A stretch of 32,052 bases of DNA from Campylobacterota bacterium. GTDB lineage: Bacteria > Campylobacterota > Campylobacteria > Campylobacterales > Sulfurimonadaceae. The DNA is taken from positions 1-32,052 of the forward strand of contig VCAY01000013.1 of the NCBI GenBank assembly GCA_013607635.1. The letters are read 5' to 3'. Positions 7,132 through 21,822 of the stretch are shown in pieces. A program made the translations under genes and the position numbers. Numbering within the stretch: position 1 is the first letter of the stretch; each line of letters begins with the position of its first letter. The notes under the pieces were generated by a model that saw nothing but the letters and a program-made list of their open reading frames with translations, did no database searches and was not told where the DNA came from.

Positions 7132-7582
7132 GCAAAAACAAGTACAATTTCTCGCGATACTCCTTTTAAGCATCGCTGGAGTATTCATCGTCGATCAAAA
7201 CATCAAGTCGCTCTTTGTGGATGGGTACCGCTATTATGGCGAGTGTATCGATCTTGTGCTTGTGTACAACAAGGGTGTTGCGTTTTCGATGTTTGCGTTT
7301 TTGGATGGGTACCTTAAATATATCCAGATTCTGTTTGTGCTGGGTGTTTTTGGGTATGTGGTCTATCTACAAAAGCTGTGCTACGCCTTTGGAGCAGGGC
7401 TTATTCTCGGTGGGGCGATCTCTAACATCTATGACAGGTTTATTCATGGCGGGGTTGTTGATATGGTGTATTGGCACTGCGGGTTTGATTTCGCGGTGTT
7501 TAATTTTGCCGATGTGATGATCGATGTGGGTGTAGTGTGGCTGTTGGTTTTTAATTTCAAGCCACATTTGTGCAAGAATTAA
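7124..7582 (+). CDS. lspA: Lipoprotein signal peptidase (signal peptidase II), original copy
   Basis: LspA cleaves the signal peptide of diacylglyceryl-modified prolipoproteins in the inner membrane. The 152-residue protein has four hydrophobic segments and the aspartyl protease motifs: VDQNIKSLF near residue 23, NKGVAFSMF near 54, [16 protein letters not shown] near 103 and [12 protein letters not shown] near 127. The start overlaps the glmM stop (ATGGATAA), giving the glmM-lspA order seen in Helicobacter. All of it except the first 11 codons is repeated downstream. Confidence 0.93.
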
Positions 7583-7684
7583 ATACATTTTTTGGTATAA
7601 TTGCCTCAAATATTTAGAGTGCAAAGGAAATTGATGGATATCAAAGTTAATAAAATTAACGGTGCTAATGCTGAGATCTCAGCA
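7157..7684. repeat. Tandem duplication, unit A
   Basis: This 528-base stretch runs from codon 12 of lspA, through its stop and the tig promoter and leader, into codon 17 of tig. It recurs at 7688-8215 without a difference that I could find by eye. The offset is 531 bases, because three junction bases (GCT, 7685-7687) separate the copies. Confidence 0.93.
7596..7601 (+). promoter_or_regulatory. Duplicated tig promoter, -10 box, copy A
   Basis: TGGTATAAT gives an extended -10 element with TATAAT at 7596-7601, preceded by a T-rich stretch and no clear -35, a common form in Campylobacterota. In this copy it should drive the fused lspA gene starting at 7634. Confidence 0.5.
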
Positions 7685-8113
7685 GCTATACTCCTTTTAA
7701 GCATCGCTGGAGTATTCATCGTCGATCAAAACATCAAGTCGCTCTTTGTGGATGGGTACCGCTATTATGGCGAGTGTATCGATCTTGTGCTTGTGTACAA
7801 CAAGGGTGTTGCGTTTTCGATGTTTGCGTTTTTGGATGGGTACCTTAAATATATCCAGATTCTGTTTGTGCTGGGTGTTTTTGGGTATGTGGTCTATCTA
7901 CAAAAGCTGTGCTACGCCTTTGGAGCAGGGCTTATTCTCGGTGGGGCGATCTCTAACATCTATGACAGGTTTATTCATGGCGGGGTTGTTGATATGGTGT
8001 ATTGGCACTGCGGGTTTGATTTCGCGGTGTTTAATTTTGCCGATGTGATGATCGATGTGGGTGTAGTGTGGCTGTTGGTTTTTAATTTCAAGCCACATTT
8101 GTGCAAGAATTAA
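7634..8113 (+). CDS. Chimeric signal peptidase II: first 17 residues of trigger factor fused in frame to LspA
   Basis: Starting at the duplicated tig ATG with its AAAGGA ribosome site, the frame reads MDIKVNKINGANAEISA (identical to trigger factor residues 1-17), one junction alanine, then LspA from Ile12 to the end: 159 residues. All LspA membrane segments and both catalytic aspartate motifs are kept, and only 11 hydrophilic N-terminal residues are replaced, so the product could be active. It would be expressed from tig's promoter and ribosome site and not the glmM operon. A longer frame from TTG 7601 overlaps the -10 and is unlikely. An assembly artefact is possible. Confidence 0.75.
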   Translation: MDIKVNKINGANAEISAAILLLSIAGVFIVDQNIKSLFVDGYRYYGECIDLVLVYNKGVAFSMFAFLDGYLKYIQILFVLGVFGYVVYLQKLCYAFGAGLILGGAISNIYDRFIHGGVVDMVYWHCGFDFAVFNFADVMIDVGVVWLLVFNFKPHLCKN

Positions 8114-8215
8114 ATACATTTTTTGGTATAATTGCCTCAAATATTTAGAGTGCAAAGGAAATTGATGGATATCAAAGTTAATAAAATTAACGGTGCTAAT
8201 GCTGAGATCTCAGCA
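7688..8215. repeat. Tandem duplication, unit B
   Basis: Second copy of the 528-base unit, ending 51 bases into the intact tig gene. The joint at 7685-7690 mixes bases from both parents: G7685 matches lspA where tig has A, T7687 matches tig where lspA has G, and the surrounding C and AT are common to both. This points to joining at a short imperfect homology. Confidence 0.93.
8127..8132 (+). promoter_or_regulatory. tig promoter, -10 box, copy B
   Basis: Same TGGTATAAT extended -10 as copy A, now upstream of the intact tig gene (ATG 8165). Confidence 0.5.
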
Positions 8216-18263: not shown

Positions 18264-18393
18264 CGATATCTGTCTTTACATGTAGCGTTATAATAAAGTT
18301 CTTCATTTTACCAATTTTGAGCATAAAAACTGCTGTGAAACTTCTCTTTTGGAGTAAAGTTAAGCAAAATTGACGAAATAATTGTAATAATTA

Positions 18394-18423
18394 TTGACTT
18401 TTATCATCATAAATGGCTATAAT
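18394..18423 (+). promoter_or_regulatory. Sigma-70 promoter for the recombinase-like/ccoG operon
   Basis: TTGACT (18394-18399) and TATAAT (18418-18423) are 18 bases apart and lie 38 bases before ATG 18462. The 198-base gap also contains an AATTTTG/CAAAATT inverted repeat (18313-18371) of unknown meaning. Confidence 0.65.
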
Positions 18424-18461
18424 GACGATGAAAATCGATAATAAATGGAGTTACTTCGTTA

Positions 18462-19097
18462 ATGACTATAGCTTATATTCGCACAGAGAAGAATTTTGAT
18501 GCTGTTCATGAACAACTACAGTTGATCAATTCATACGCACAGGCGAACAACTTGGTTATTGATGATGAGTTTATCGATCACACTTCGCAAAACAAAACTC
18601 TTGATCAAAGAGAGCATGTCACCAAATACTTCCAATCACACCAAAATTCGACACTGCTTTTCAGTGATGTTTGGGTTTTAACAACACACATGGGGGATCT
18701 TATTCAGATGTTTTCATGTTTGCTAAGAAACCAATTTGAAGTTCATTTTATAAAACAAAATGTTATAATGAGCGATCAAAGTAGTGTGATGATGGTATTG
18801 GGTTTGATGGATCATCTGCGTCAAAGGCTTCAAGAGGATGCAAAACGCTCAATTGGACGACCAAAAGGAAGCAAGTCGAGTTCAAAATTTGATGTTTATT
18901 TCAATGAGATTATAGAGTATATCAAAGAGGGAAAAAGTGTTAGTGAGATGGCGCGGATCCTTGGGGTAAGCAGGAGCTCGCTTAAAGATTATATCGAATC
19001 CCGAGAGATGAAGCAGATCGCTGTTGGATCACTTTTAACTAACTTGCCCGATAATGGTGAAGAGCATCTGATCAATACGATAGTGTGCCCAAAATAA
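18462..19097 (+). CDS. Serine recombinase-like protein lacking catalytic residues, probable DNA-binding regulator
   Basis: The 211-residue protein follows the resolvase/invertase plan: an N-terminal catalytic-type fold (IAYIRTEKNFDAVHEQLQL, QREHV, DLIQMFSCLL, VHFIKQNVIMSD), a long helix with a GRPKGSK hinge near residue 127 and a C-terminal helix-turn-helix (SVSEMARILGVSRSSLKDYI). The active-site serine expected after YxR is replaced (YIRTEK), and the LDRLGRD arginines read VWVLTTH, so strand cleavage is implausible. The DNA-binding half is intact. It lies 18 bases upstream of ccoG, so it may regulate respiratory genes; this is inference. It is not flanked by repeats or inversion sites that I could see. 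Confidence 0.75.
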   Translation: MTIAYIRTEKNFDAVHEQLQLINSYAQANNLVIDDEFIDHTSQNKTLDQREHVTKYFQSHQNSTLLFSDVWVLTTHMGDLIQMFSCLLRNQFEVHFIKQNVIMSDQSSVMMVLGLMDHLRQRLQEDAKRSIGRPKGSKSSSKFDVYFNEIIEYIKEGKSVSEMARILGVSRSSLKDYIESREMKQIAVGSLLTNLPDNGEEHLINTIVCPK

Positions 19098-19115
19098 GAT
19101 AGGAGAAACAAAAGA

Positions 19116-20570
19116 ATGAGTCAAAAGACAGAGTCTAAAGCGATAGATATACCGACATCGTGGAGAATCAAACGGTATTATATGTACGGGATTGCCACTA
19201 TATTATCTTTGGTGGTACCTTGGATCCAAATCAATGGAAATCATCTCTTCTTGTTTAGTTTTGACAAGATGAAGCTTCATCTTGCATTTATTCAGTTTGA
19301 TATGCAAGAGTTGTATCTTATGCCGTTTTTGTTGATGCTGTTGTTTATCAGTATCTTTGGTATGACGGTTGTGGGTGGACGTGTTTTTTGTGGATGGCTG
19401 TGTCCACAGACGATCTTTAGGGTGGTTTATCGTGACTTGATTGAGACAAAACTTTTAAAGCTGCGTAAGCGTATCGGTAATAAACAGCAAGAGCCAGATA
19501 TGAGCAAGCCTGAAAATAAAGTGAAAAAGACGTTGGCCATTATTATTTGGACAGTATTGGCACTTATTGCCGGAGCTGATTTTATGTGGTATTTTGTACC
19601 GCCGCAAGACTTTTTTGCCTATTTGAATAATCCGGCAGATCACATGGTGATGATCGGTTTTGTTGTGGGTGTTGCTATCTTTTTGATTTACGATATTGTC
19701 TTTTTGAAAGAGAACTTTTGTGTCTATGTGTGTCCATATTCTCGTGTGCAGTCGGTGCTTTATGATGATCATACCGTTATGGCGATCTATGATGAGCATC
19801 GAGGTGGTACAATTTATGAAGATGAGGGTAATGGGCAATATAAAAAACTTTTTACCAAACAAAATAATCTACGTGAAGCCAATCCAAACTCGGAATGTAC
19901 AACATGTGAGAAGTGTGTAACTGTTTGTCCGACACATATCGACATCCGTAAAGGGTTGCAGCTTGAGTGTATCAACTGTTTGGAGTGTGTCGATGCTTGT
20001 ACAACGGTGATGGGTAAACTTGGCAAGCCTTCACTTGTTACATGGTCGAGTGATTATGAGATCGTTGAGCAAAAAGGGAAAACCCATTTCTTTAGACCAA
20101 AAGTTATCGGCTACGGGGTTATCCTTCTTCTCATTACAATTGCACTTGGATGGATGGGTACAACAAAAGAGCACATGTTGTTAAACATCAACAAAGACAC
20201 TGTTGCCTACACGATTGAAAAGACCGAGGATGGTAAAACTCTCATAGAGAACTCCTACACATTTTTGATGCAAAATATTCAGCAAGAGAAACAAAAATAC
20301 TATTTTGATGTCATTGTTCCTAAAGGATACAACGGTAAGATCAGTATCTCTAGACCAGTACATCCGTTTCCGGTAGTTCCAGGTAAAATTAAGAAAAAAA
20401 TTGTAATTCTCAGAACAACGGACAACATGGCAAAACATAAGCAGGAAGACACTATCATCCCAGTTACCATTCATGCTTATGCACTCGATAAAGATGGTAA
20501 GAAAAGCAAAAAGATCGCAGTTGATCGAAAAACAACTTTTATCTTCCCTGGCAGTGACACGCTGAAGTAA
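19116..20570 (+). CDS. ccoG: Cytochrome c oxidase accessory protein CcoG (FixG/RdxA family)
   Basis: CcoG is an inner-membrane iron-sulfur protein that reduces Cu(II) to Cu(I) for assembly of cbb3-type oxidase. The 484-residue protein has about five membrane segments (near residues 25, 75, 145, 180 and 335), the membrane-adjacent CGWLCPQ and CVYVCPYSRVQSVLYDD motifs, and two ferredoxin clusters: CTTCEKCVTVCP and CINCLECVDAC near 265-295. The C-terminal 120 residues form a periplasmic immunoglobulin-like domain. AGGAGA precedes the start. The cbb3 oxidase genes themselves are not in this window. Confidence 0.93.
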   Translation: MSQKTESKAIDIPTSWRIKRYYMYGIATILSLVVPWIQINGNHLFLFSFDKMKLHLAFIQFDMQELYLMPFLLMLLFISIFGMTVVGGRVFCGWLCPQTIFRVVYRDLIETKLLKLRKRIGNKQQEPDMSKPENKVKKTLAIIIWTVLALIAGADFMWYFVPPQDFFAYLNNPADHMVMIGFVVGVAIFLIYDIVFLKENFCVYVCPYSRVQSVLYDDHTVMAIYDEHRGGTIYEDEGNGQYKKLFTKQNNLREANPNSECTTCEKCVTVCPTHIDIRKGLQLECINCLECVDACTTVMGKLGKPSLVTWSSDYEIVEQKGKTHFFRPKVIGYGVILLLITIALGWMGTTKEHMLLNINKDTVAYTIEKTEDGKTLIENSYTFLMQNIQQEKQKYYFDVIVPKGYNGKISISRPVHPFPVVPGKIKKKIVILRTTDNMAKHKQEDTIIPVTIHAYALDKDGKKSKKIAVDRKTTFIFPGSDTLK

Positions 20571-20709: not shown

Positions 20710-21822
20710 ATGCCATTTTCTGCAGAAAATAGAAAAGGTACTATCTCTGGGATCATTTTTGTTGCTATCTTCGCAGCAGCGGCAACAATGATCGCAGATA
20801 TATCATTTATCAAAAACCTAGGACTTTCACCGCTTGTTATCGGTATTGTAATGGGTATTTTTTACGCAAATACTTTGCATCATCATATCCCAAGTGAGTG
20901 GGGTAATGGAATTGTTTTTTCAGGAAAAAAGATTCTTCGTTTCGCGATCGTATTTTACGGCTTTCGTATCACATTTCAAGAGATGATGGATGTAGGGTTG
21001 AGCGGTTTTACCGTGTCTGTCGTTATGCTCTCTTCAACGATGATTATAGGCTCATGGCTAGGGTATAAAATATTTAAAATGGAAAAAGATACAGCGATGT
21101 TGACTGCTTCAGGGGCGTCTGTTTGTGGTGCTGCAGCAGTTTTAGCAACAGAACCTGTACTAAAAGCCGAAGGGCATAAAACAGCTGTTGCTGTTTCAAT
21201 GGTTGTGCTTTTTGGTACGATCTCAATGTTTTTATATCCTGTTTTATATGAAACAATCATCAAACCGGCAACAGGCTTTTTGCACATGACACAACAGGAA
21301 TTTGGTATCTATGTAGGTGGTACGATTCATGAAGTTGCACAGGTTGTTGCTGTTCCTGCATCGATTCCCGGCGCACCAGAGTCGATGGCACACTCTGCCG
21401 TTATTGTAAAGATGACGCGCGTTATTTTGATTGCTCCTATGTTGATTGTATTGGGAATTTATCTTTCCTATACAGCCAAAAAAGAGGGGGGTGAAGCGAC
21501 CAAGGCAGGGCTTACAATTCCTTGGTTTGCTGTTTATTTTATTGGTATGGTTGGATTTTATTCCATTTTAGTGAATCTTTTTGATCTAAAAGCTGCACAC
21601 CCTTCTGATTTGGCAGTTATGATCAATGGTTTAATCGCTAATATCAATAAAATAGATACTTTCTTGCTTACAATGGCGATGACAGCTCTTGGTATGGGAA
21701 CCATCTTCTCAAAATTCAAAGGGCTGGGACTTGCACCACTTTATACTGCCGGAGCGATGTTTGCATGGCTTGTAGTTGGTGGTTTTATTGTCACGAAAGT
21801 TGTTGTAGCAGCTTTTTCATAA
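20710..21822 (+). CDS. YeiH/UPF0324 family membrane protein (putative sulfate exporter family)
   Basis: The 370-residue protein has about ten hydrophobic helices. Family features include the N-terminal GLSPLVIGIVMGIFYAN, the SGASVCGAAAVLATEP loop near residue 133 and the GTIHEVAQVVA segment near 198. The family is annotated as putative sulfate exporters on limited evidence. In a sulfur oxidiser an exporter of sulfate or a related anion would be useful, but the substrate is not shown by the sequence. AAGGAG precedes ATG 20710. It is likely transcribed separately from ccoG. Confidence 0.85.
   Translation: MPFSAENRKGTISGIIFVAIFAAAATMIADISFIKNLGLSPLVIGIVMGIFYANTLHHHIPSEWGNGIVFSGKKILRFAIVFYGFRITFQEMMDVGLSGFTVSVVMLSSTMIIGSWLGYKIFKMEKDTAMLTASGASVCGAAAVLATEPVLKAEGHKTAVAVSMVVLFGTISMFLYPVLYETIIKPATGFLHMTQQEFGIYVGGTIHEVAQVVAVPASIPGAPESMAHSAVIVKMTRVILIAPMLIVLGIYLSYTAKKEGGEATKAGLTIPWFAVYFIGMVGFYSILVNLFDLKAAHPSDLAVMINGLIANINKIDTFLLTMAMTALGMGTIFSKFKGLGLAPLYTAGAMFAWLVVGGFIVTKVVVAAFS

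Follow-up and report, generated by a model that had tools for sequence, protein, structure and literature searches.

The gene directly upstream of ccoG in this Campylobacterota contig likely encodes an autoregulating transcription factor descended from a small serine recombinase (resolvase/invertase), as judged from comparative sequence evidence. It lies at positions 18462–19097 on the forward strand of the window (the whole 32,052-nt stretch of DNA that was analysed), and the ORF, profile matches, and fold model describe its 211-aa product as a catalytically dead protein of the serine-recombinase fold. The original prediction of a recombinase turned transcription factor is strongly supported by the loss of catalytic residues across the order, the linkage to ccoG, and a conserved, co-varying operator that overlaps the promoter and is largely confined to carriers of the gene.

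The protein retains the resolvase domain order together with a helix-turn-helix (HTH), in agreement with the earlier reading. The ORF has one in-frame ATG start at the position predicted before; the predicted end at 19115 does not stand, as the ORF stops at 19097 and the longer span takes in the 18-bp gap to ccoG. The resolvase catalytic domain (PF00239) covers residues 3–119 with 29.8 bits against a Pfam cut-off of 23.3, and the profile was matched at E ≤ 0.001 by 27 of the 28 aligned members. Profile matches and models place the DNA-binding domain at about residues 149–181 (18906–19004, + strand), with HTH_28 and HTH_7 both below the Pfam threshold, and a GRPKGS arm (residues 132–137) precedes it. 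Two AlphaFold models, made from alignments of 28 and 71 orthologs with mean pLDDT values of 79 and 87, respectively, both predict a recombinase fold followed by the HTH, and the solved structures closest to the first model in Foldseek were the Tn3 and gamma-delta resolvase-DNA complexes. The recognition region SRSSLKDYI was nearly invariant in 71 diverse orthologs.

The active site has been dismantled throughout the family. In an alignment with gamma-delta resolvase and Hin, the window protein has E9 (codon 18486–18488, + strand) where gamma-delta resolvase carries its catalytic Ser10, and D67, R68, R71, and E118 are replaced by W, V, T, and L, respectively, which confirms the predicted loss of the serine and two key arginines (S10→E9, R68→V, R71→T); R8, Q19, and R45 are retained. 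The losses proved to be conserved when checked across the order: the nucleophilic serine is missing in 114 of the 116 orthologs, and D67 and two active-site arginines (R68 and R71) are gone from all 116, in which R45 is always kept and R8 is R or K in 115. A 14-residue segment of helix E (E124/R125) is also deleted in every ortholog, leaving the helix 14 residues shorter even than in other recombinases of the same order and 20 residues long in the predicted model. Because the reading frames are open and conserved down to ~30% identity, the family does not consist of pseudogenes.

A still-working site-specific recombinase with an unconventional active site, inverting or resolving DNA at the dyads described below, would account for the retained fold, HTH, R8, Q19, and R45, for the serine found at position 10 in two orthologs (L165 and L169), and for the resemblance of the dyads to paired resolvase binding sites. 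We nevertheless regard it as extremely improbable and reject it on the missing residues (Ser in 114 of 116 orthologs; D67, R68, R71, and distal helix E in all), the helix E deletion, and the orientation of the promoter, which is directed toward the gene across families. Moreover, the dyads are placed as promoter operators and flank no invertible segment, and the additional sites are single and unlinked. Restored active-site residues or traces of recombination were named beforehand as evidence against a regulator; the residues are missing order-wide, and no sign of promoter inversion was seen. A second, different degenerate serine-recombinase homolog was observed in six loci of one family, f9, perhaps Arcobacteraceae (L029, L179–L182, and L184). 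It has mostly lost Ser10 and R68 and has kept R71 and E118, it adjoins a divergent ubiX-like gene and usually rplI-hslVU, and recurring TTAACATTnTGTATAA-like boxes lie upstream; it may be another recombinase-derived regulator.

The gene pair with ccoG is conserved nearly without exception. In the window, ccoG (19116–20570, + strand), encoding the polyferredoxin/cupric reductase for cbb3 oxidase assembly, scores 457.9 bits with TIGR02745 against a cut-off of 316.7; it starts at 19116, 18 bp after the regulator ORF ends at 19097, exactly as noted before, and is likely on the same transcript. Searches with the ortholog alignment, first in 60 relatives and later in 397 genomes across the phylum, separated the orthologs (E ≤ 1e-50) clearly from ordinary recombinases (E ≥ 1e-22). 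The analysis drew on 116 unique ortholog loci, which represent some ten families of the order; the genus and family names of the compared genomes were inferred, and one relative bears the annotation Sulfurimonas autotrophica MAG. The linkage, checked in these loci as had been proposed, holds in 114 of 116, with ccoG directly downstream on the same strand, and within 100 bp in 111. The two loci lacking a downstream ccoG are one at a contig end (L169) and a divergent copy beside a SLAC1 gene (L026). Residue loss, ccoG linkage, and the promoter are common to 116 genomes and thus no chance property of one sequence.

In same-genus genomes without the regulator, metH or another gene adjoins ccoG and no dyad is present there, a layout that looks like clean loss of the regulator gene. 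Cargo of a mobile element was considered and rejected: phages and viral contigs gave no match, and plasmids yielded only ordinary recombinases of ~30% identity. Beyond ccoG, the window encodes a YeiH-type (PF03601) membrane protein at 20710–21822, which also adjoins ccoG in L031. Elsewhere in the window, positions 7154–7684 and 7685–8215 form an exact 531-bp tandem duplication, which takes in the greater part of lspA together with the beginning of the trigger-factor gene and may be an artefact of assembly.

A strong promoter overlapped by predicted operators lies upstream of the regulator. As predicted, the core promoter is strong, TTGACT-18-TATAAT at 18394–18423, with the −35 element at 18394–18399 and the −10 element at 18418–18423 (both + strand). 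The predicted operator O1 (18371–18409), conserved in position and sequence in orthologs, is a 39-bp imperfect dyad, TGACGA-N27-TCATCA, which contains the −35 element and is centred at about −40 from the predicted transcription start; its right arm is degenerate relative to the consensus TGACGA-N27-TCGTCA. The predicted operator O2 (18423–18461), a 39-bp dyad TGACGA-N27-TCGTTA, ends at the start codon; of 31 loci from the genus, 24 have it. Nearly all orthologs carry a ~39-bp dyad, TGACGA-N~27-TCGTCA or a co-varied form, over their own −35 element. In 85 of the 111 orthologs with an anchor, a near-consensus −35 of this promoter is followed by a −10 box at 17–19 bp.

When outer arm bases were counted at total dyad lengths of 38–40, at least 9 of 10 matched in 105 of 116 upstream regions, and dinucleotide shuffles gave an expectation of 0.4. 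The two arms change together from family to family (TGACGTA/TACGTCA, TGGCGAA/TTCGCCA, and AGACGA/TCGTCT). The operator was recognised from the same ortholog sequences; it is checked by the shuffles, by the gene-less genomes, and by the co-variation of its arms. The classical resolvase crossover site is 28 bp, which the 39-bp dyad exceeds by about one helical turn. This extra length would fit the loss of a long helix E that inserts into the site centre, a docking described previously (PMC9943657).

The dyads follow the gene through the genomes of the window's family. Among 48 genomes with the gene, 40 contain exact dyads, compared with 3 among 30 that lack it, these genomes not being phylogenetically independent; in the three gene-less genomes, the base composition of the dyads was unlike that of intergenic operators. 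A dyad upstream of a conserved small membrane protein gene (63–73 aa) that precedes a gene for an M48/CAAX-type protease (L053–L058, L190, L192, L196, L198, and L200) was found in 15 of 48 genomes with the regulator and 0 of 30 without (p = 0.0003, genomes again not phylogenetically independent). This count comes from the whole scan and replaces a 20-versus-11 set that had been partly chosen for having the site. The small membrane protein has no Pfam match, and the M48 gene itself was present in 20 of 20 genomes searched, with or without the regulator.

These distributions bear on the alternative that some other, unlinked regulator uses the dyad as its operator, with the dead recombinase no more than a passenger or a structural protein. 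Binding of the dyad by the dead recombinase is itself only predicted, which leaves room for this explanation, but we consider it highly unlikely. The dyads co-distribute with the gene and are missing without it although ccoG and the M48 gene persist, the recognition region is as invariant as the TGACG arms, and a dyad stands at the regulator gene's own promoter in every family.

An autoregulatory factor of recombinase descent remains our preferred reading. A dimer would occupy each dyad, setting one HTH on either TGACGA arm and the GRPK arm against the A/T-rich flank, and binding at O1, over the −35, and at O2, over the transcript start and leader, would repress the regulator-ccoG operon. We infer repression at the −40 sites because the core promoter is strong and O2 covers the start. 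Two site positions recur: the regulator's own promoter and the NifX-like promoters have the dyad over −35 with its centre at about −40, and at the small membrane protein-M48 (nine species) and DUF6858 promoters the dyad ends 41–42 bp before the −10, with no clear −35 and a centre at about −73 (the DUF6858 distance was read from the sequence). The ~33 bp between the two positions correspond to three helical turns, and at the latter promoters the same protein probably activates. The −40 centre could also suit a class-II activator, and activation rather than repression of its own operon would be in keeping with both this centre and the −73 centre at a fixed distance from −10, each typical of activators. 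We judge activation of the own operon unlikely, however, as a near-consensus −35 with a −10 at 17–19 bp, seen in most anchored orthologs, rarely needs an activator, and O2 lies over and downstream of the start.

The predicted targets extend from oxidase maturation to respiration and sulfide handling more broadly. Further dyads occur upstream of genes for an SQR-like flavoprotein (L194), DUF6858 (L191), and SLAC1-DUF302 (L060 and L061), and upstream of NifX-like genes (L193, and L059, where cydA follows). Genes of the SQR-like and NifX-like types in other families lie directly 3' of regulator-ccoG (L080, L084, and L086) or further on (L083), an independent hint that they belong with this pair. 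The suggested control of oxidase maturation or copper handling is thus only partly supported: the broader predicted targets include SQR-like, cytochrome bd, SLAC1, DUF6858, and M48 genes, and no dyad was found at ccoNOQP or copper genes among the sites examined. In the window's own genome (an assembly 92% complete), a one-mismatch scan recovered only O1 and O2, and the M48 gene has no upstream site. Because only these two operators are recognisable and the M48 gene lacks one, the regulon in this genome may be ccoG only. The most divergent ortholog, L026 (G052:C144, rec 1315-1869), faces the gene of a SLAC1-family transporter across an intervening dyad; it has lost both conserved cysteines and the C-terminal tail, and its genome has another dyad before a NifX-like gene and cydA.

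Two conserved cysteines are the candidate signal input of the regulator. C86 (codon 18717–18719, + strand) is conserved in 115 of 116 orthologs, and C209 (codon 19086–19088, + strand), in a C-terminal (I/L)xCP tail modelled with moderate confidence, in 114 of 116; both are absent from related recombinases. With less weight, we propose that they might detect a metal or a thiol-reactive signal (sulfane sulfur, redox, or copper); DNA binding would then change, and ccoG and respiratory and sulfide genes would be adjusted with it. CcoG is a cupric reductase for cbb3 assembly (PMC8267372). This role, together with the SQR-like genes that are predicted as targets, makes thiol-based sensing of sulfur/redox or copper plausible, although well short of an even chance. 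The full reading is that dead-recombinase factors across the order sense sulfane sulfur, redox, or copper through the two cysteines, repressing at −40 and activating at −73, and so control a respiratory regulon (ccoG, SQR-like, NifX-like/cydA, DUF6858, SLAC1-DUF302, and the membrane M48 protease); we hold it tentatively, as possible but still doubtful.

A simpler explanation, a plain negative autoregulator of ccoG dosage that binds no ligand and in which the cysteines are structural, strikes us as somewhat unlikely. It agrees with the presence of only O1 and O2 in the window's own genome, with the position of O2 over the transcription start and leader, and with the Pfam search of the window protein, which revealed no known sensor domain. 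Against it, the two cysteines are conserved down to ~30% identity and are both lost in L026, the sole copy unlinked to ccoG by genomic context, and several extra targets are predicted in other genera.

Public profile libraries class this family as resolvase/recombinase, which hides an apparent respiratory regulator conserved throughout a large group of microaerophilic and sulfur-oxidising bacteria. If true, a serine recombinase would clearly have been exapted as a dedicated and conserved transcription factor whose operator, lost residues, and two-cysteine candidate sensor are all identified, and the family would offer a handle on the tuning of cbb3 oxidase assembly and sulfide respiration in these bacteria. 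In the open-access literature, we found no report of a recombinase-like or serine-recombinase-derived regulator linked to ccoG, an absence that is no proof.

Known systems share parts of this design. The best curated NCBIfam match is the master DNA invertase Mpi (NF009949; residues 1–184, E 1.5e-12), but the score of 47.6 bits is below the cut-off of 272, and the window protein is without the catalytic residues. The resolvase of Tn3 is known as a self-regulated repressor, as references cited in PMC7157771 indicate. TnpR of Tn3/gamma-delta resembles the window protein in fold, domain order, HTH, and dyads over its own promoter region (binding being predicted here), and these resolvases are recombinases that also repress transcription. 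In contrast, the window protein lacks the active site and distal helix E, its 39-bp dyads are longer than classical res subsites, and it is chromosomal, order-wide, and linked to ccoG, with no transposon. MrpR of the Bacillus subtilis prophage SPbeta has a recombinase fold, has lost catalysis, and is now a repressor (PMC10516654). It is likewise a recombinase turned dedicated DNA-binding regulator, the role predicted for the window protein, but it is prophage-borne and of the tyrosine-recombinase fold, whereas the window protein is chromosomal, of the serine-recombinase fold, and set in a respiratory context. The ArsR-type repressors BigR and SoxR respond to sulfide/sulfane sulfur through two cysteines (PMC5823870, PMC10451225); they share with the family two conserved cysteines and sulfide-oxidation genes among the targets (predicted here), on a fold unrelated to that of the window protein, in which the role of the cysteines is putative.
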